Origin: Ignavibacteriota bacterium
Lineage (GTDB): Bacteria; Bacteroidota; Ignavibacteria; UBA10030
Direction: 5' to 3'
NCBI GenBank assembly: GCA_003170475.1
Contig: PMZI01000032.1
Span: 1-33,572 of the forward strand
DNA: 33,572 nt
The stretch's first letter is position 1. Every line of letters begins with the position of its first letter. The translations under genes and the position numbers were made by a program. Shown here one piece after another: positions 3,365 to 25,663 of this stretch. Below the pieces are notes generated by a model, which was not told the origin of the DNA, did not search any database, and saw only the letters and a list, made by a program, of their open reading frames with translations.

Positions 3365-3663
3365 ACAACCCCATGTCTCTGATCATTTCGAACGTTGCTT
3401 CTGCTTCAGCTCGCCGCCCGCACAAGACTCCCCACAAGACTCCAACCTTTGCCTCCAGACATTAAAGAGACACGCAAGGGAAAGAGCCGTCGGGTCCGCA
3501 ACGCAACGATGAAAGATTCTCTCTCTTGTGATCAGACAGGAACTCTGCGATGTGGACTCTTGTCTGCTACACGGTAGAGACGGACTCTCCTGACGATTGG
3601 TTGATTATGAGTTCAAAATTGGTTAATTGTAGACCAATCATGGATTCGTGGAGAGCACCGCTT

Positions 3664-4392
3664 ATGATTGACGTCAGACAGGGAGTAATAGGATCACCCC
3701 TCTTATTGGTGGCCTTTTTGATGATGAATTCCGGATCTCCCCTGTTTGGGCAGGAAGCTCTAAGAATGGGGGAAATACGAGGGAAAATTACAATAACAAA
3801 GAGCGAAGACGACATTCAGAAGCCGCCGCCGGTCGACCGTTACAGCACTCATCGGCTCGCGCCCACGAGCATGTCCGGTGCAGGGATGTCATCGTCCGCA
3901 GTGAAGTTGTCCGAAAGAGCTGTTATCTATCTCGAAAGCCAAAGCAGCAAGGCGCAAAATTTCCAACCTCCGACGGCACACCCCATTCTTGACCAGCGGG
4001 ATCTCGCATTTCACCCGCAGGTTCTCCCCATTCTCGTCGGGACAACGGTTGAATTTCCGAACAAGGACAACCTCTTTCATAATGTTTTCTCGTATTCTTC
4101 ACCGAAAGAGTTTGATCTCGGTCGTTATCCCACCGGAGAATCCAAGTCTATCCGATTTGACAAAGCAGGGATTGTCCGCGTCTATTGCGACATCCATTCT
4201 CACATGAACGCTACTATTCTGGTGCTCGAGAATCCGTTTTTCGCGATCCCGGACGACGGAGGAGCGTATGTCATCAAAAATGTTCCCAATGGTACGTACA
4301 TCGCGCGCCTTTGGTTCGGCCGGGACCTCGCCGCCAGCCAGAGCGTCAGCATCAAGAATGGCGAATCAGTCTCCGTCAACTTCACCTATTGA
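3664..4392 (+). CDS. Secreted cupredoxin with C-terminal carboxypeptidase-regulatory-like domain
   Basis: The 242-residue exported protein has a signal peptide (residues 1 to about 30, ending near LFGQ) and a cupredoxin domain at roughly 110-190. Predicted copper ligands are His139 (LFHNVFS), Cys175, His178 and Met181 (YCDIHSHM). A short beta domain follows, containing GGAYVIKNVPNGTY, typical of carboxypeptidase-regulatory/SdrD-B-like modules. Related proteins are often annotated as methylamine-utilisation or plastocyanin-like. The frame is open from 3550, but ATG 3664 follows GTGGAGAG and begins the signal peptide. The porin gene starts 9 bases after the stop, so the two are probably co-transcribed and may act together at the cell envelope. 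Confidence 0.82.
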   Translation: MIDVRQGVIGSPLLLVAFLMMNSGSPLFGQEALRMGEIRGKITITKSEDDIQKPPPVDRYSTHRLAPTSMSGAGMSSSAVKLSERAVIYLESQSSKAQNFQPPTAHPILDQRDLAFHPQVLPILVGTTVEFPNKDNLFHNVFSYSSPKEFDLGRYPTGESKSIRFDKAGIVRVYCDIHSHMNATILVLENPFFAIPDDGGAYVIKNVPNGTYIARLWFGRDLAASQSVSIKNGESVSVNFTY

Positions 4393-5632: not shown

Positions 5633-7492
5633 ATGAAATTCCGGCACAAAATACTCCTGTCGATTTGGGGCGTCGTACTCAGCTTGCTGGTGATCACGTT
5701 CTTCATTATTAATTACTGGACGCGAAGCCGAATTGAAGACGCATTCTCCGAGGAACTGCGCAGTAATCGATCGACGCTCAACGGCATCGTTGGACTCGAA
5801 GCAGAGATTCTGGCCCGTGGTTGTCAGGTCATTGCAGAGTCGCCCCGGCTACGAGCGGTTGTGGAACTTCAGGATCCCAAGACAGCATATCAGCTCTCAC
5901 AGGAGCTCAATCAAACCATCGTGAGTGATCTCTTCGTGCTGACCGATAGAACCGGCAGACCGCTGGTTGAGATCATCTCTGGTCAGAAAGGGGAATGGAT
6001 CGTCGCAGGACAACAATCGATTCAACAGGCGCTCAAATCTATCTCTGCGACGGACGTGTGGGCGTTAGGCGGCAAGGCATTTCATGTAGCCTCGGTTCCG
6101 CTTGTTGTGGATCGCGACATGGTGGGCACGCTGACACTCGGTTTTGCCATCACGGATGAAGAACTGGCAAGGTTGAAGCAATGGACGAATAAGACTGAAA
6201 TCCTTCTCGCCCAACATCAAAAGGTTGTCCTCTCGACGCTGGGATTGAAGGAGCAGGGTGATCTGATTGCCGCGCTCGACGCAGCAGGCATTCTGAATGC
6301 ACGGCATGGAGTGGATTCGGCAGGGCCAGTGTTCAAGCTGAAGGTTGCAGATGATGTCTACCTGGGAACGGTGTACCAGTTGAGCGCTCAAAACTCCTCG
6401 GCTGAGCCCATCCAGTATTTGATTATGAAATCGACCCACCGGGAAATCTCCAGATCGCTCAATCCGATTCTCGGGACATTTGGATTCATTTCGCTGCTCT
6501 TTCTTGTACTCACCACGATCATCGGGTATGCGATTGCTGGTGGTATTACCAGGCCTATCAACAAGCTTGTTCGGGGCACCACCGAAGTCGCCAAAGGCAA
6601 CTATGGTTTTGTCATCTCAGTCAGTGGGAAGGATGAACTAAGCTTTCTTGCTCAGCGCTTCGGAGACATGAGCAAATCGCTGAAAGAGAAAATCGATGAA
6701 TTGGGACAATTGAATCAGGACCTGATTAGTCGGAACCGTGATCTCGATGAGACTCTTCAGAAACTGAAAGAAGCCCAGGAAGAGCTTGTGAAAAGCGAGC
6801 GCCTGGCAGCGACAGGAAAACTGACGGCCCAGTTGGCTCACGAAATCAATAATCCCGTGCACAACATCCAGAGTTGCCTGAAAACCAGCCTGGGAAGATT
6901 GCCGAAGGATATTCAGGGGAGAGACCTCATCGAGGTGGCGTATGAGGAGGTTGCCCGCATGTCAAAGTTGACGCGGCAGCTGCTCGACTTCTATCGGACG
7001 TCCTTCGTCCCGGAAGAAATGATGGCCGTCGATCTCAATCGCGTAGTGAACGAGACCGTCCGTGCGTTCGACACCGAACTCTCCAGTGCCGGGATCAGCG
7101 TCGAGCTGAACTTGCAGGAGCCTTTGCATCCCATACGAGGTTCGTCTGACAAACTCAAGCAAGTATTTCTCAATATCATTCTGAATGCCAAAGATGCGAT
7201 GCCCGACGGTGGACTCCTGAAAATCTCGAGTAGCGAATCTGATGGCATGGCGCGGGTTACCATCAGCGACAACGGTGTGGGAATTCCCAAAGAACACATC
7301 GGCAAACTTTTCGACGCGTTCTTCACGACCAAGAGCAAAGTCAGCGGGGTAGGACTCGGTCTCTCCGTCAGCTACGGTATCATCAGCCAGCATCGAGGTA
7401 CCATCAACGTTTCCAGTTCAGCGGGTCGGGGATCGACGTTTACAGTCTCCCTTCCTCTGCAGAACGGCGATCAAACAAACATGACAGCGTGA
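5633..7492 (+). CDS. Membrane sensor histidine kinase (NtrB/AtoS-like)
   Basis: The 619-residue kinase has TM1 at about residues 9-28, a periplasmic sensor region (about 30-275, Cache-like in layout), and TM2 at about 280-302. These are followed by a HAMP linker, a coiled coil ending in KEAQEELVKSERLAATGKL, a HisKA domain with phospho-acceptor His403 (LAHEINNP), and a HATPase domain with N box (NIILNAKDAMP), DNGVGIP and GVGLGLSVS. It autophosphorylates and should donate phosphate to the NtrC-type regulator encoded 7 bases downstream. The sensor ligand is unknown; adjacent porin and cupredoxin genes make an envelope or metal signal plausible. Confidence 0.92.
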   Translation: MKFRHKILLSIWGVVLSLLVITFFIINYWTRSRIEDAFSEELRSNRSTLNGIVGLEAEILARGCQVIAESPRLRAVVELQDPKTAYQLSQELNQTIVSDLFVLTDRTGRPLVEIISGQKGEWIVAGQQSIQQALKSISATDVWALGGKAFHVASVPLVVDRDMVGTLTLGFAITDEELARLKQWTNKTEILLAQHQKVVLSTLGLKEQGDLIAALDAAGILNARHGVDSAGPVFKLKVADDVYLGTVYQLSAQNSSAEPIQYLIMKSTHREISRSLNPILGTFGFISLLFLVLTTIIGYAIAGGITRPINKLVRGTTEVAKGNYGFVISVSGKDELSFLAQRFGDMSKSLKEKIDELGQLNQDLISRNRDLDETLQKLKEAQEELVKSERLAATGKLTAQLAHEINNPVHNIQSCLKTSLGRLPKDIQGRDLIEVAYEEVARMSKLTRQLLDFYRTSFVPEEMMAVDLNRVVNETVRAFDTELSSAGISVELNLQEPLHPIRGSSDKLKQVFLNIILNAKDAMPDGGLLKISSSESDGMARVTISDNGVGIPKEHIGKLFDAFFTTKSKVSGVGLGLSVSYGIISQHRGTINVSSSAGRGSTFTVSLPLQNGDQTNMTA

Positions 7493-7499
7493 GCCATCC

Positions 7500-8909
7500 A
7501 TGGTAGAGCACATTCTGATTGTCGACGACGACAACGCATTTCGCATCGCGACAGTGGCACTTCTCGAAGACCACGGCTTTGCCGTTCAAGTGGCTTCAAA
7601 TGCTGTGCAGGGTCAGAAGATCTTAGAGAAACAATCCTTTGATTTGGTCCTCTCGGATCTCGTTATGGAAGGGATGAATGGGATCGAGTTGCTTCAATGG
7701 ATCAAAGAGCGGTCGCCGGAAACACCGGTCATGATGATTACAGGATTTGCCTCCGTCAAGACTGCCGTGGAAGCGATCAAGCTTGGAGCGTATGATTACA
7801 TCACGAAGCCCTGTGACAATGATGAGCTTCTGATCAGAGTCCGGAGAGTGCTCGAGGACCGGAAGAAAGATCGTGAAATCCGTCAACTGCGCGACGAGCT
7901 TCGCGGGACGTACAGCTTTTCCAACATTGTCAGTCAGAGCGATTCGATGAAGCAGGTGTTTAAATCGGTCAGTCAGGTGGCGGATACGGATGCAACGGTC
8001 CTTGTCCTGGGTGAAACGGGAACCGGCAAAGAAATGCTCGCCAAAGCAATCCACTTCAATAGCTCTCGCAAATTAAAGCCGTTCATCGTTATTACATGCT
8101 CTGCATTGAACGAATCCCTTCTCGAGAGCGAGCTGTTCGGACATGAAAAGGGCGCATTCACCGGCGCGCAGCGACTCCGTGTTGGCAAGTTCGAAGATGC
8201 CGATGGGGGAACAGTGTTCCTGGATGAAATAGGCGACATACCCATCCATCTGCAGACAAAACTCCTGAGGGTTCTTCAGGAGAAAGAGATAGAACGTGTT
8301 GGTGGAAACAGGCCGATACCTGTTGATGTTCGGGTCATCGCGGCGACGAATAAGAATCTCGCGGGAATGGCAAAAAGCGGGCAGTTTCGCGAAGACCTTT
8401 TCTATCGTCTCAACGTTTTTCCCATCCATTTGCCGCCACTCAAAGAACGGCCGGAGGATATTCCACTGCTCACCGAACACTTCGTTCGGAAACATGCCAA
8501 CCTCGGAGGGAGTCGGGTTACAGGAGTAGCTCCCAGCGTCCTGTCGGCGCTTGCCGGTTATCGCTGGCCGGGGAATGTGCGCGAGCTCGAAAACGTCATC
8601 AAGCGCGCACTCATCAAAACTGAAGGAACCGTGATCATTTCAGTCGAGGTACCCGGAGCGGCGCGATCGGGGTCGGCGTCTTCCATCTCATCGCCGGCAC
8701 TCTCCGACAATACTCCATTCAAAGACTATATGAAGTCGATTCTCCAGAACGCGGAGTCCCTGTTCCTGGTCGAGATGCTTGAACGCCATCAAGGAAACGT
8801 GAAAGTTGTGGCAGAGTTGATGGATCTCGATAGAAAGACCGTCTACAAAAAGATCGAAGAATACCACATCGATCTGGCCAAGTACCGTGGTGCAGATGAT
8901 GCACCATGA
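7500..8909 (+). CDS. NtrC-family sigma-54-dependent response regulator
   Basis: The 469-residue regulator has three domains. The receiver (1 to about 120) has acidic residues Asp10/Asp11, phospho-acceptor Asp53 and Lys103. The AAA+ domain has Walker A GETGTGKE, the sigma-54-contact loop GAFTGA, Walker [12 protein letters not shown] and arginine-finger region [12 protein letters not shown]. The C-terminal Fis-type helix-turn-helix ends in [20 protein letters not shown]. The intact GAFTGA motif shows it can remodel sigma-54 polymerase. It forms a two-gene unit with the upstream kinase. A sigma-54-type promoter lies at 9029, and palindromes suited to activator binding lie between 8888 and 8979, so the cytochrome cluster just downstream is its likely target. 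Confidence 0.95.
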
Positions 8910-8979
8910 GGAATTGAATCCCCATTCAAGACGCCTATGTTGATTTTCCTCCCCAGTTTCTGAGTATTCCGCAATTGCG
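8888..8979. promoter_or_regulatory. Palindrome cluster, candidate enhancer (UAS) for the NtrC-type regulator
   Basis: Three perfect dyads occur within 92 bases: TGGTGCA/TGCACCA at 8888-8894 and 8900-8906, inside the last codons of the regulator gene; TTGAATCCCCATTCAA at 8914-8929; and CGCAATTGCG at 8970-8979. They lie about 50-140 bases upstream of the -24/-12 promoter at 9029, the usual distance for sigma-54 activator sites. No T-tract follows the 8914 dyad, so a terminator is less likely. Which dyad is bound is unknown. Confidence 0.45.
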
Positions 8980-9028
8980 TTCTGGTCCTATTTCGCCCCT
9001 TTGAGATGCTTTCTCGAAAACTTCCCTC

Positions 9029-9044
9029 TGGCATCAGGATTGCA
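9029..9044 (+). promoter_or_regulatory. Sigma-54 (-24/-12) promoter
   Basis: TGGCATCAGGATTGCA matches the sigma-54 consensus TGGCAC-N5-TTGCA at all but one specified base (T for C at position 6). The critical GG and GC dinucleotides and the spacing are kept. The expected start of transcription is about 12 bases past the -12 element, roughly 45 bases before the ATG at 9102. It lies about 120 bases after the stop of a sigma-54 activator gene. Confidence 0.6.
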
Positions 9045-9101
9045 TTCTCTTGCTCACGAGTCAATCCACCACTCCATTTTCACTAACACAGAGGTGCACA
9101 G

Positions 9102-9260
9102 ATGGGACGAGTTCTACTCTTTTCCGTTCTCGTATTGGTCCTTGCGTCCATGGGTTTCGGACAAATCCAGGCTGTCGCGCGTCCCAGCGGCGCGTATTTC
9201 TATAGTCTTGCTACGGATGGCGCTCTGGTGCAAACGAAGAAAATGGTCCTGTTGAAGTAA
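9102..9260 (+). CDS. Miniature exported protein: signal peptide joined to a T9SS C-terminal tail end
   Basis: The 52-residue reading frame starts at ATG 9102, with GAGGTG five bases upstream. Residues 1 to about 24 form a signal peptide (MGRVLLFSVLVLVLASMGFG). Residues 29-52, from PSGAYFYSL to TKKMVLLK, closely resemble the final strand of the type-A T9SS sorting domain (pattern SGvYfYrL...tKKmvLlK). Typical cargo has hundreds of residues between these parts, and the full sorting domain is about 75 residues, so the passenger and most of the tail are missing. It may be an internal-deletion remnant or a genuine mini-protein. A sigma-54-type promoter and the cytochrome genes flank it, favouring retention. 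Confidence 0.6.
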   Translation: MGRVLLFSVLVLVLASMGFGQIQAVARPSGAYFYSLATDGALVQTKKMVLLK

Positions 9261-9338
9261 CGCTGTGGAAGATCTTCAATTCGCGGATCGCGCGAGAACG
9301 ACTGAATAGTTTTATTCTCAAACTGAAAAGGATCAAGC

Positions 9339-9761
9339 ATGTTCAACCCACGTTTCATTCTGTCTATTATCGTACTCACGGCAGCAATGGTTATTGCGGG
9401 ATGTTCGGATCAGGGGAGCAATCCTGCGAGCTCCGATCAAGCCGCTCCACCTCCCCCTGTAACTCAAACGGGAAGTGTTTCTTTTCAAATCCAGATCAAG
9501 CCGATTTTCCAGCGTTATGGATGCGCGAGTTGCCATGGAGGAAGCGGAGGACTCTTTGTGCAGACGGTTGCTCAACTCCTGCAGGGGGGTGTCGATGGCC
9601 CCGCCGTCATTAGCGGCAAAGCAGATGCCAGTGTTATCATCAAGAAGCTCTCTGCAAACCCGCCGTTCGGAGATCGGATGCCGCAAGGCGGCCCGTACTT
9701 GCCGGATAGCACCATGCAGGTCATCAAGGATTGGATTAATCAGGGAGCCAAAGATAACTGA
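9339..9761 (+). CDS. Monoheme c-type cytochrome lipoprotein (planctomycete-type domain), copy 1
   Basis: The 140-residue protein has a lipoprotein signal (VIAGC, lipid anchor Cys22), a Pro/Ser-rich linker to about residue 45, and one heme-c site CASCH (Cys62, Cys65, His66). Met114 in FGDRMP is a candidate distal ligand. The domain resembles the small Planctomycete-type cytochrome c domain, whose members end in a KDWINQGAKDN-like helix. It should be anchored in the periplasm or outer membrane and carry one electron. The start follows AAAGGA. It is clearly a paralogue of the next gene, with shared LSANPPFGDRMP and GGPYL segments. It is probably transcribed from the sigma-54 site at 9029. Confidence 0.88.
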   Translation: MFNPRFILSIIVLTAAMVIAGCSDQGSNPASSDQAAPPPPVTQTGSVSFQIQIKPIFQRYGCASCHGGSGGLFVQTVAQLLQGGVDGPAVISGKADASVIIKKLSANPPFGDRMPQGGPYLPDSTMQVIKDWINQGAKDN

Positions 9762-9788
9762 GCATGAGCACATGCGAATGCAGGCAAA

Positions 9789-9899
9789 AGTCAGATTTCG
9801 ATTTTCCCACTCAGAGTGGAAGAGCCGGAGAGATGGGGTGCTGGGAACGACACGTGGGCAAGGATTGTTGAGGGGTTGTCGGGGAGTCGAAATCTGACT
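9789..9899. repeat. 111-bp element bounded by perfect 13-bp inverted repeats
   Basis: AGTCAGATTTCGA at 9789-9801 is repeated in perfect inverted orientation as TCGAAATCTGACT at 9887-9899, between the duplicated cytochrome genes. Partial complementarity continues inward, and a small hairpin (CCACT/AGTGG) lies near 9808-9820. No target-site duplication or transposase is visible. It could be a MITE-like insertion, or an RNA hairpin that stabilises or attenuates the transcript between the two cytochrome genes. Confidence 0.55.
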
Positions 9900-9949
9900 A
9901 TTATTACCAGGGTTAGTCATAACGGGTGTATCAAAGGGGAGTGAACTGA

Positions 9950-10354
9950 GTGCGGTTTCTACGTCTAAGCATGCTCATGGGGGGGATCCTCGCCGTCGGA
10001 TATTTCACCGGCTGTTCCGACAAGGGTGTCAATCCTGTGGACACGATCTCTCCGGTGCCAACGCCGGATGTCTCTTTCATGAACCAGGTCGTCCCATTTT
10101 TCGTCAACTACGGTTGCGACGGATGCCACGGGGGAAACGGCGGACTGGATGTTCAATCGGTCGCTCAACTTCTGCGTGGAGGCATTCACGGTCCAGCCAT
10201 TCTCGCCGGCAAAGCTGATTCCAGCGTCATGGTGAGAAAACTCTCTGCCAACCCTCCGTTTGGCGATCGTATGCCGCGCGGCGGGCCTTACCTTGCAGAC
10301 TCAACAATTCAAATTCTCAAAACATGGATCAATCAAGGAGCCAAAGACAATTGA
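9950..10354 (+). CDS. Monoheme c-type cytochrome lipoprotein (planctomycete-type domain), copy 2
   Basis: The 134-residue paralogue of the preceding cytochrome has a signal ending in a lipobox (FTGC, Cys22), heme site CDGCH (Cys56, Cys59, His60), candidate distal Met108 in FGDRMP, and an ending WINQGAKDN identical to copy 1. The linker is shorter and less proline-rich. The GTG start at 9950 is supported by AAAGGGGA nine bases upstream. Tandem duplication best explains the pair. The two could sit in series as an electron wire or serve different partners. The next gene is translationally coupled to its stop codon. Confidence 0.88.
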   Translation: MRFLRLSMLMGGILAVGYFTGCSDKGVNPVDTISPVPTPDVSFMNQVVPFFVNYGCDGCHGGNGGLDVQSVAQLLRGGIHGPAILAGKADSSVMVRKLSANPPFGDRMPRGGPYLADSTIQILKTWINQGAKDN

Positions 10355-10776
10355 GCAACGAATCGCCTCAATCGACGAAAATCCAAGTTCCATCTCTGCT
10401 TCCACATCTTGTTCTTCTCATTCTGTTTTCGGGAACGATGTTCGCACAGGATACCACAAAGGGGAAGCCACCCACAGACGTATCGTACTCAAAAGATGTC
10501 GCTCCTGTTATCGAAAAGTTCTGTGTGACATGCCATTCAGCGGATGAAGATCATCCGAGTCAGCTTTTTATGGATTCCTACGAGTCACTCATGAACGGGG
10601 GAAAACACGGGAAAGCAATCGTGCCCGGGAATTCCAAGGAGAGTCTTCTTTCTCAGAAGATGGGTGAAGATCCGCCGTTTGGAAAGATGATGCCGCCGCC
10701 GAGAAAGCCGCGGCCGACGGACGAACAAATTGCCCTCATTCGTGCGTGGATTGACCAGGGTGCGAAGAAGAATTAA
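10351..10776 (+). CDS. Exported monoheme c-type cytochrome-domain protein, copy 3
   Basis: The third cytochrome of the cluster has a signal segment (LLPHLVLLILFSGTMFAQ) without a lipobox, and one heme site CVTCH (Cys58, Cys61, His62). A Met-rich stretch GKMMPPPRKPRP follows, and the ending WIDQGAKKN matches copies 1 and 2. I chose the TTG at 10351 because AAGGAG sits ten bases upstream and TTGA overlaps the previous stop, indicating coupling. An upstream in-frame ATG at 10324 lacks a ribosome site and would overlap the previous gene by 31 bases. At 141 residues it should be periplasmic and possibly soluble, perhaps passing electrons between the two anchored paralogues and another partner. Confidence 0.83.
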   Translation: MSNESPQSTKIQVPSLLPHLVLLILFSGTMFAQDTTKGKPPTDVSYSKDVAPVIEKFCVTCHSADEDHPSQLFMDSYESLMNGGKHGKAIVPGNSKESLLSQKMGEDPPFGKMMPPPRKPRPTDEQIALIRAWIDQGAKKN

Positions 10777-24324: not shown

Positions 24325-24613
24325 CGTCTATATTCGACGCGCCCTCCTGCAAAGTCCATTTCGTTCACTTGATTCTCAATGATCATCCGTCCTCTCGCGG
24401 ATCCCCGGAGAATCACTCTGAGTGAGCGTATTCTCTCTACAAAGGTCGTGCCAAACAAATCGGCTTGAATTTCGTGAGATTTTTCGGTAAGTAGTTCTAT
24501 CCGTCACGGTTTGCCTTCGTGGAGTCATCCTTGGCGGGAATTTCACTGGAAGCGTATCGTTCGAGCAAGAGAGCTTGTTCCTGTTGTCTGTCCTGAATTG
24601 AGATAATTGTTTT
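24325..24613. other. Intergenic region upstream of the DUF1611-lysA-asd block
   Basis: This 289-base stretch has no supported gene; minus-strand frames across it have poor composition and run into the DUF1611 gene. It probably holds the promoter of the downstream amino-acid block, but I could not identify convincing -35/-10 or sigma-54 elements, a riboswitch or a terminator for the xer gene. Confidence 0.4.
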
Positions 24614-25663
24614 ATGAATCGTAGAATACTCGCCTTGGCGGAAGGCAGGTTCAGTCCGCTGAAGTCCAAGACGGCAAACGGCGCGATTGCGTATCTCACG
24701 AGTGAAGTCATAGGGGTCGTTGACAGCACCAAAGCCGGCATGACGTCCCAACAGGTGCTTGGCTATGGCGGCGACATTCCAGTTCTCCGCAATCTGGAAG
24801 AAGGTCTTCGTCTCCAACCGACGCACATGCTGATCGGCATCGCACCTCCCGGAGGGCGCTTGCCGGAGATATGGCGGGACCTCATTCGCGAGTCGATCAA
24901 AGCCCGACTCCACATTCTCAGCGGGCTCCACACGATTCTCTCCGACGACGCTGAGTTCACAACGCTGGCAAGGGAATACAATGTCAGCATCACAGATTAC
25001 AGAAAGATTGCTCCCGAATCTGAGGTAGTGGCAAAGGGCACGTGGCGAAATCGGAGAGCCAACGTCATCCTCACTGTCGGTACAGACTGCAACATCGGGA
25101 AAATGACGACGATTCTGGAGATTCAAAAGGACCTTGTGCAGCGCGGGGTGAAATCGGATTTCGTTGCCACCGGTCAAACGGGAATGATGATCAGGGGCAG
25201 GGGAGTCGCTGTCGATTCACTCATCGGCGACTACATCGCAGGAGCAATAGAATTGGAAATCGACCGTTCTGTGGCGGAAGGCTATGAGTACATCCTTGTC
25301 GAAGGACAGGGTGCCCTGACGCATATGGGGTATTCGAGCGTCACGCTGGGGCTTCTTCACGGAACAATGCCGGATGCCATGATCCTTTGTCATCAACCAA
25401 CCCGATTGAAAGATGACTACGGTTTGGTTCTGCCCGGATTGAAAAGCATTATCGATCTTCACGAAGGGATTGTCAGGTTTTTCCGTGAAACAAAAGTCAT
25501 CGCTATCGGACTGAACTCTGTGGGCCTCTCTGATGAGGAGTCACAGGCGGCGGCAGAGCGTATCACCCAAGAAACCGGTCTGCCCACCGTCGATGCGTTT
25601 CGATTCAGTCCTCAGAAGCTGACTGACGCGCTCATTGGGTATTTTTCGACAAAAGGTCATTGA
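24614..25663 (+). CDS. DUF1611-family P-loop protein (DgcN-like)
   Basis: The 349-residue protein belongs to DUF1611. It has an N-terminal Rossmann-like part (residues 1-140, THMLIGIAPPGGRLP) and a C-terminal P-loop domain with the variant Walker A VGTDCNIGKMTT (155-166) and EGQGALTHMGYSSV. A family member, DgcN, has been described as an N-acetyltransferase acting on D-glutamate, working with an enolase-superfamily racemase (DgcA). A dipeptide epimerase related to such racemases is encoded about 10 kb upstream in this window. The role here is inferred. The stop overlaps the frame of lysA and the genes are probably coupled. Confidence 0.82.
   Translation: MNRRILALAEGRFSPLKSKTANGAIAYLTSEVIGVVDSTKAGMTSQQVLGYGGDIPVLRNLEEGLRLQPTHMLIGIAPPGGRLPEIWRDLIRESIKARLHILSGLHTILSDDAEFTTLAREYNVSITDYRKIAPESEVVAKGTWRNRRANVILTVGTDCNIGKMTTILEIQKDLVQRGVKSDFVATGQTGMMIRGRGVAVDSLIGDYIAGAIELEIDRSVAEGYEYILVEGQGALTHMGYSSVTLGLLHGTMPDAMILCHQPTRLKDDYGLVLPGLKSIIDLHEGIVRFFRETKVIAIGLNSVGLSDEESQAAAERITQETGLPTVDAFRFSPQKLTDALIGYFSTKGH

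Follow-up and report, generated by a model that had tools for sequence, protein, structure and literature searches.

The window considered here is the whole 33,572-nucleotide stretch of contig PMZI01000032.1, which belongs to a draft assembly of an Ignavibacteriota bacterium (G000; 85 contigs, 96% complete). Between a response regulator gene and a run of cytochrome-c-like genes it holds a 52-codon open reading frame, and the features of this locus are as follows.

5633-7492, forward strand: histidine kinase (dCache_3, HAMP, HisKA, HATPase_c)
7500-8909, forward strand: NtrC-type response regulator with receiver, sigma-54 interaction and Fis-type HTH domains (PF00072, PF00158, PF02954)
9029-9044, forward strand: sigma-54-type -24/-12 site TGGCATCAGGATTGCA, the sole exact pattern match in the window
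9090-9096, forward strand: ribosome-binding-like AGAGGTG, read from the sequence
9102-9260, forward strand: 52-codon frame, open from ATG to TAA, translation MGRVLLFSVLVLVLASMGFGQIQAVARPSGAYFYSLATDGALVQTKKMVLLK; the predicted 52-residue product includes the stretch QIQAVARPSGAYFYSLATDGALVQTKK
9102-9170, forward strand: retained 5' end, start codon and signal-peptide-like head, codons 1-23, MGRVLLFSVLVLVLASMGFGQIQ
9165-9173, forward strand: putative deletion junction at about codons 22-24, where head homology stops and tail homology starts
9171-9257, forward strand: retained 3' end, last 29 codons, strands beta6 and beta7 (Motifs D and E)
9258-9260, forward strand: stop codon of the 52-codon frame
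9339-9761, forward strand: cytochrome-c-like gene 1 (PF07635, 24.5 bits, cut-off 22)
9950-10354, forward strand: cytochrome-c-like gene 2 (PF07635, 26.0 bits), a paralogue 60% identical to gene 1
10324-10776, forward strand: PSCyt1-type cytochrome gene 3 (PF07635, 39.5 bits)

An earlier note on this DNA had described the frame as a signal peptide joined to the last strand of a T9SS sorting tail, with a ribosome site before its start, a sigma-54-type promoter upstream and no passenger. The 52-residue frame with its signal-peptide-like head and T9SS tail end was found at 9102-9260 as described, as were the ribosome-site-like AGAGGTG and the sigma-54-type site, and nothing lies between head and tail that could be a passenger. 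The tail is indeed the end of a type-A CTD (46.5 bits), but it comprises two strands, beta6 and beta7, and not the last one only. The hydrophobic head is a putative signal peptide, judged by eye and by homology with the heads of intact genes in related genomes. Motif D (GxY) is present as SGAYFY and Motif E (a basic residue with a hydrophobic end) as TKKMVLLK, the motif names being those used in sections of PMC11969387. The Motif B/L-beta3-beta4 loop and the cleavage region are absent.

To score the tail we used a profile of 26 sorting-domain tails from the same genome, the ones whose end conformed to a simple pattern among the 29 loci L002-L030. The frame reached 46.5 bits, whereas the best other closed short frame, with CTD ends excluded, scored 11.5 bits in a set of 17,349 frames drawn from 148 sources that overlap in part. 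Since, in addition, a search of the same genome with the frame at E up to 10 returned 50 other hits (the weakest at 1.61), all in frames of 276-2058 codons, a chance resemblance of the tail was ruled out. NCBIfam TIGR04183 aligned to the 52-residue product only over positions 42-70 of 72 (E 0.14, 12.1 bits against a cut-off of 23 bits) and Pfam gave no match to it, so that the frame stays below the sorting-domain cut-off (TIGR04183 or PF18962); the low TIGR04183 score is expected, as the frame is a fragment. The genome encodes SprA (1102.8 bits) and PorU (974.9 bits) and should therefore run a T9SS.

Two members of the same genus, G005 and G001, carry a long intact gene at the same spot. In G005 a single 621-codon frame, giving 609 residues from its ATG, matches the mini-frame at both ends: residues 1-33 match at 26869-26967 of contig G005:C137 (E 4.8e-6) and residues 23-52 at 25141-25230, and a cytochrome relative comes next at 24561-24953. 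In G001 both ends likewise fall in one frame, here of 646 codons and again 609 residues from ATG, with residues 1-34 of the mini-frame matching its head (E 3.6e-4). In the G005 protein a signal peptide is followed by four CHRD domains (PF07452, 397 bits) and then by a type-A sorting domain, matched by PF18962 over 530-605 and by TIGR04183 with 38.1 bits; the G001 protein also has four CHRD matches. Gene order in G005 is regulator, sigma-54-type site, gene, cytochrome; in G001 the regulator and the sigma-54-type site precede the gene, the contig breaks just past it and the cytochrome sits at the end of another contig. Compared with either relative, the window lacks 557 codons (1,671 bp). The earlier note had offered a large internal deletion as one origin of the frame and had pointed to flanking homologues with a full-length cargo gene as the place to look; the 609-residue gene in G005 and G001, intact and with the same two ends, supports the deletion, and the missing passenger is accounted for by relatives that still hold the whole gene.

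Head and tail of the mini-frame could be aligned separately to these genes. The head is identical to that of the intact gene at 16 of 23 residues in G005 and 13 of 23 in G001, and the tail at 20 of 29 residues in G005 and, likewise, in G020. The tail corresponds to G005 residues 581-609, the only portion of the sorting domain that is kept. Modelled with AlphaFold2 (mean pLDDT 83, with 53-80 per ten residues over 521-609), the G005 protein has predicted sorting-domain strands at 524-526, 537-544, 548-555, 561-570, 573-580, 587-595 and 598-607, of which the last two lie within the retained part. Head homology stops after codon 22 or 23 and tail homology begins at about codon 24. On the tail side, G001 CAG-TCT-GCC-GCA-CTC-CCA aligns codon for codon with CAG-GCT-GTC-GCG-CGT-CCC in the window, which would place a possible three-base CAG microhomology at 9168-9170. 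The longest exact word common to the two breakpoint regions measures 12 nt in G005, 9 in G001, 7 in G020 and 7 in G007, and the 12-nt word lies away from the junction.

Taken together, the 52-codon frame is most likely what an in-frame deletion left of a T9SS cargo gene with CHRD domains. The product of the parent would have started with a signal peptide, continued with four CHRD domains and ended in a complete type-A C-terminal sorting domain, as do the 609-residue proteins of G005 and G001, and by comparison with them some 557 codons appear to have been lost, from just past the signal peptide to just before beta6. Promoter, ribosome site, start, frame and stop would all have survived this loss, leaving a gene that reads as a signal peptide joined to a two-strand hairpin. 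Its translation, if it occurs, would most likely yield a peptide of about 32 residues sent to the periplasm, which probably does nothing because it is without a passenger, the beta3-beta4 loop (Motif B) and the sortase cleavage region. The main remaining effect of the deletion may be that the sigma-54-type promoter was brought nearer to the cytochrome genes.

The deletion is seen in one assembly of one genome, a draft of 85 contigs, and the organism might instead keep the full gene, its two ends having been joined by the assembler. CHRD genes do lie at assembly breaks in relatives: a contig ends shortly after the gene in G001 and within it in G021, and L099 has an N gap. On the other hand, the breakpoint regions of G005, G001, G020 and G007 have no common word longer than 12 nt, and with the 12-nt word located off the junction a collapse of repeats by the assembler is unlikely. 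A search for PF07452, which found matches in 9 of 32 genomes, returned neither a match nor a first-look candidate in the 85 contigs of G000, where at 96% completeness a gap holding CHRD sequence remains conceivable. We therefore regard an assembly error as improbable.

The earlier note had also raised the possibility of a functional mini-protein acting as a lid, decoy or regulator. Such a protein would be a secreted two-strand hairpin, kept under sigma-54 control and engaging the T9SS, for example its shuttle. Frame, start, ribosome-like site, promoter-like site and stop are all intact, SprA and PorU are encoded in the genome, dN is not raised, the shuttle normally binds the same hairpin and a portion of PMC4804311 was counted in favour. 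The short frame was nevertheless found in no relative examined. It is absent from the five other genomes of the genus that were examined, which have a full cargo (G005, G001), a different one (G002, G004) or none (G003), so that the mini-protein idea received no positive support from them. In the order, a search of 98 genomes at E up to 5e-4 gave 43 matches, none of which, apart from that of the window, was a signal-peptide-plus-two-strand frame; frames shorter than 160 codons were that of the window, an N-split CHRD gene (G071, with the coordinates of L099) and an orphan tail in G091. In a sample of 395 genomes of the phylum, with at most 17 candidates scored per genome, 18 matches reached E up to 1e-4, and of these the window's was the sole signal-peptide-plus-tail frame. 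One short frame of 84 codons, in G142, is a near-whole sorting domain without a signal peptide that lies less than 150 bp from a contig end, and a 183-codon frame in G141 looks like a small complete cargo. Within the genus, the 98 order genomes and the 395 phylum genomes, a conserved small-protein family was accordingly rejected as far as searched, the searches following the sequence of this tail, so that mini-frames with very different tails would escape them.

What has been reported on sorting signals also weighs against a working hairpin. In the sections concerned, PMC11285876 describes the beta3-beta4 loop of RgpB as also needed and PMC11969387 describes natural short CTDs as keeping Motif B with the last two strands; this Motif B/L-beta3-beta4 element is deleted in the window. 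A recent deletion would account just as well for the frame being intact. We hold a functional mini-protein to be quite improbable, and the more elaborate picture, in which the hairpin occupies the T9SS shuttle or outer-membrane step and tunes other export while the locus serves as a cassette site whose tail is kept and whose passengers are swapped or removed, to be very improbable.

For the head, dN was 0.200 between the window and G005, 0.202 between G005 and G001 and 0.294 between the window and G001; the corresponding values were 0.351, 0.345 and 0.321 for the tail and 0.161, 0.134 and 0.191 for the regulator gene. Synonymous differences (pS) came to 0.86 for the tail against G005 and to 0.81 for the regulator, where dS is saturated; dS of the head to G005 was 0.68 on 18 synonymous sites. 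As a measure of age dS is therefore weak. The dN/dS of the frame, which the earlier note had proposed to calculate, does lie below 1, but this mostly reflects time before the deletion. We saw no clear decay: the frame is open, and its tail scores 46.5 bits compared with 21.0-58.7 for the CHRD genes at the cytochrome loci examined. An R precedes the xSG motif (PSG) in the window, where 25 of 26 tails of the same genome have L, V, M, F or I, and this may be one slight sign of relaxation. In a neutral simulation with substitutions only, the frame stayed open in 18% of cases at 0.2 and 2.9% at 0.5 substitutions per site, suggesting that a remnant both old and free of constraint would probably have lost its reading frame by now; greater divergence should also be seen in an old neutral one. 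With the frame intact and dN unexceptional, either the loss is recent relative to the age of the genus or the frame is under constraint, perhaps a weak one.

A role of the frame solely as a translated leader, whose amino-acid sequence would be irrelevant and whose translation would prevent polarity on, or couple to, the cytochrome genes, is most improbable. The frame does stand downstream of the sigma-54-type site and 78 nt ahead of the cytochrome start, with no sigma-70-type promoter between them in a consensus scan whose one hit is at 9876, but co-transcription has no direct support, terminator-like sites in 8880-10400 number 4 against 1.2 expected, two overlapping ones inside the frame (9173-9195) would, if real, argue against read-through, and a leader role is compatible with a deletion remnant and so no full alternative to it. 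The consensus promoter and terminator scan was uninformative.

The surroundings of the frame bear on its history. The sigma-54-type site was found with a pattern that we take to represent the -24/-12 consensus, written to allow C or T at the sixth base; with one mismatch the pattern has 6 matches in the window against 1.08 expected. Sites with at least 10 of 12 consensus bases were detected upstream of the gene in G005, G001, G007 and G002, whereas none at this level was detected upstream of the gene in G020, G060 or the short G004 contig, nor at L096, L097, L100, L102, L103, L105, L106 and L109 (the last being G060); three further hits with at least 10 of 12 bases fell at unrelated places. 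The site is hence a feature of the genus and G007 and not of every CHRD-cytochrome pair, and that of the window was probably inherited from the parent gene. An orthologue of the regulator immediately precedes the intact gene of G005 and that of G001, as well as the G002 gene, and the regulator at 7500-8909 is likely to activate the site at 9029-9044, with the histidine kinase at 5633-7492 as its presumed partner. Cytochrome gene 1 is a recurrent downstream neighbour of the parent, its relatives lying 54-559 bp downstream of CHRD-CTD genes. That this neighbourhood makes simple junk less likely is not a valid conclusion, since the promoter, the regulator and the cytochromes are what surrounds the parent gene in any case. 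Two cupredoxin-like proteins further upstream in the window, at 1886-2266 and 3550-4392, which we recognised by eye from what we take to be cupredoxin motifs, fit an electron-transfer neighbourhood.

A profile search for the cytochrome in named genomes gave 59 loci, of which 38, picked by eye and mainly the better cytochrome matches, were checked for an upstream sorting-domain frame and 21 were left out; some of the 38 are short upstream (120 bases at L093, 139 at L111). At 14 of the 38 loci a sorting-domain (CTD) frame ends 54-559 bp before the cytochrome, and 13 of these are CHRD genes by motif, with Pfam run on L091 and L092 only. L090, which is G004, is the sole one of the 14 with a different cargo, and the CHRD gene of L099 is split by a 2-N gap. 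At L104 and L112 the sorting-domain frame lies only 1.7-2.2 kb upstream, L112 having in addition a CHRD-like frame without a sorting-domain tail; at L116, L119 and L132 it overlaps the cytochrome match itself, and the rest of the 38 loci have no sorting-domain frame upstream. A CHRD-repeat T9SS cargo directly before a PSCyt1-type cytochrome is thus recurrent in Ignavibacteria and other Bacteroidota (13 of 38 loci), the loci of the pair being 9029-10776 of the window together with L091, L092, L094, L096-L100, L102, L103, L105, L106 and L109. As the pair recurs beyond the genus, the locus in the window is most simply the derived state. A search of one literature collection returned no paper joining the CHRD domain with T9SS, Bacteroidetes or a cytochrome.

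The CHRD repeats of the modelled parent protein (L091:2487-4313) have conserved HxH and NxH histidines. Fold matches of the model of this gene product include the Cu,Zn superoxide dismutase chains 6dtk and 1xso, at probability 0.91-0.98 and a TM by target of 0.23-0.44, with complement and macroglobulin proteins matched too; the best-ranked hits of the fold search span most of the chain at a query TM-score below 0.2, which is uninformative. A metal-binding, redox-linked role of the repeats beside the cytochromes is a possible lead.

Within the genus the cargo at this locus varies. In G002 the gene before the cytochrome (L074 1963-2844) has a choice-of-anchor V domain (NF041895, 162 bits) on a sorting domain, and it shares 78% identity with the G004 gene (L076 1067-1996). 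When the G002 protein is compared with G005 and with G001, it matches the CHRD gene of this locus best in each, with 59% and 52% identity, the former over the sorting domain; the CHRD gene ranks first of 77 matches in G005 and of 78 in G001, 79 candidates having been scored of 102 and of 100, respectively. In a tree of 41 sorting domains those of G002, G004, G005 and G001 group with a support of 91/75, below the 95/80 mark, and a related gene of G007 is placed apart from them. Weakly supported as it is, this grouping suggests that the passenger may have been exchanged on a kept tail in G002 and probably in G004. G003 has neither the regulator gene nor a cargo directly before the cytochrome; kinase, regulator and cargo are all absent between an outer-membrane-type gene and the cytochrome (L075 3273-5085). 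At the edge of contig G004:C56 (the high-coordinate end of L076), immediately upstream of the G004 cargo, there is another sorting-domain end (..TESVLTKKMVLLK), so that two cargo genes may be arranged in succession there.

In the six genomes of the genus this locus thus carries a cargo with four domains, another cargo on what may be the same tail, a gutted one or none at all, a spread that shows fast turnover of cargo at one site. As a deletion remnant the frame is well explained. It is a natural case of a T9SS cargo trimmed to the final two sorting-domain strands, which have been discussed as the minimal export signal in Porphyromonas gingivalis, and the retained head and tail are a ready test construct.

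The known comparison system closest to hand is the set of type-A T9SS cargo genes with CHRD domains beside a PSCyt1-type cytochrome, as in G005, G001, G020, G007 and named Ignavibacteria and Bacteroidota. The window frame is like the CHRD genes of G005 and G001 in locus, head, tail, sigma-54-type site and regulator, but none of the four CHRD domains is left in it, and of the seven strands predicted for the sorting domain five are missing. The orphan tail of G091:C70 (L152 2708-2812) is, like the window's, a free-standing frame ending in a sorting-domain tail; it has 35 codons and no signal peptide, adjoins another CTD gene and looks like a broken fragment. With the minimal tail of HBP35, the last 22 residues as presented in portions of PMC3120885, the window tail has the last two strands in common; the HBP35 tail carried a GFP passenger in an experiment, whereas the window tail carries nothing. 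The short CTDs of Prevotella intermedia, which have 43-55 residues and three predicted strands according to the relevant passages of PMC11969387, are likewise reduced sorting domains around the last two strands, but they keep Motif B, a cleavage site and a passenger, of which the window frame has none.
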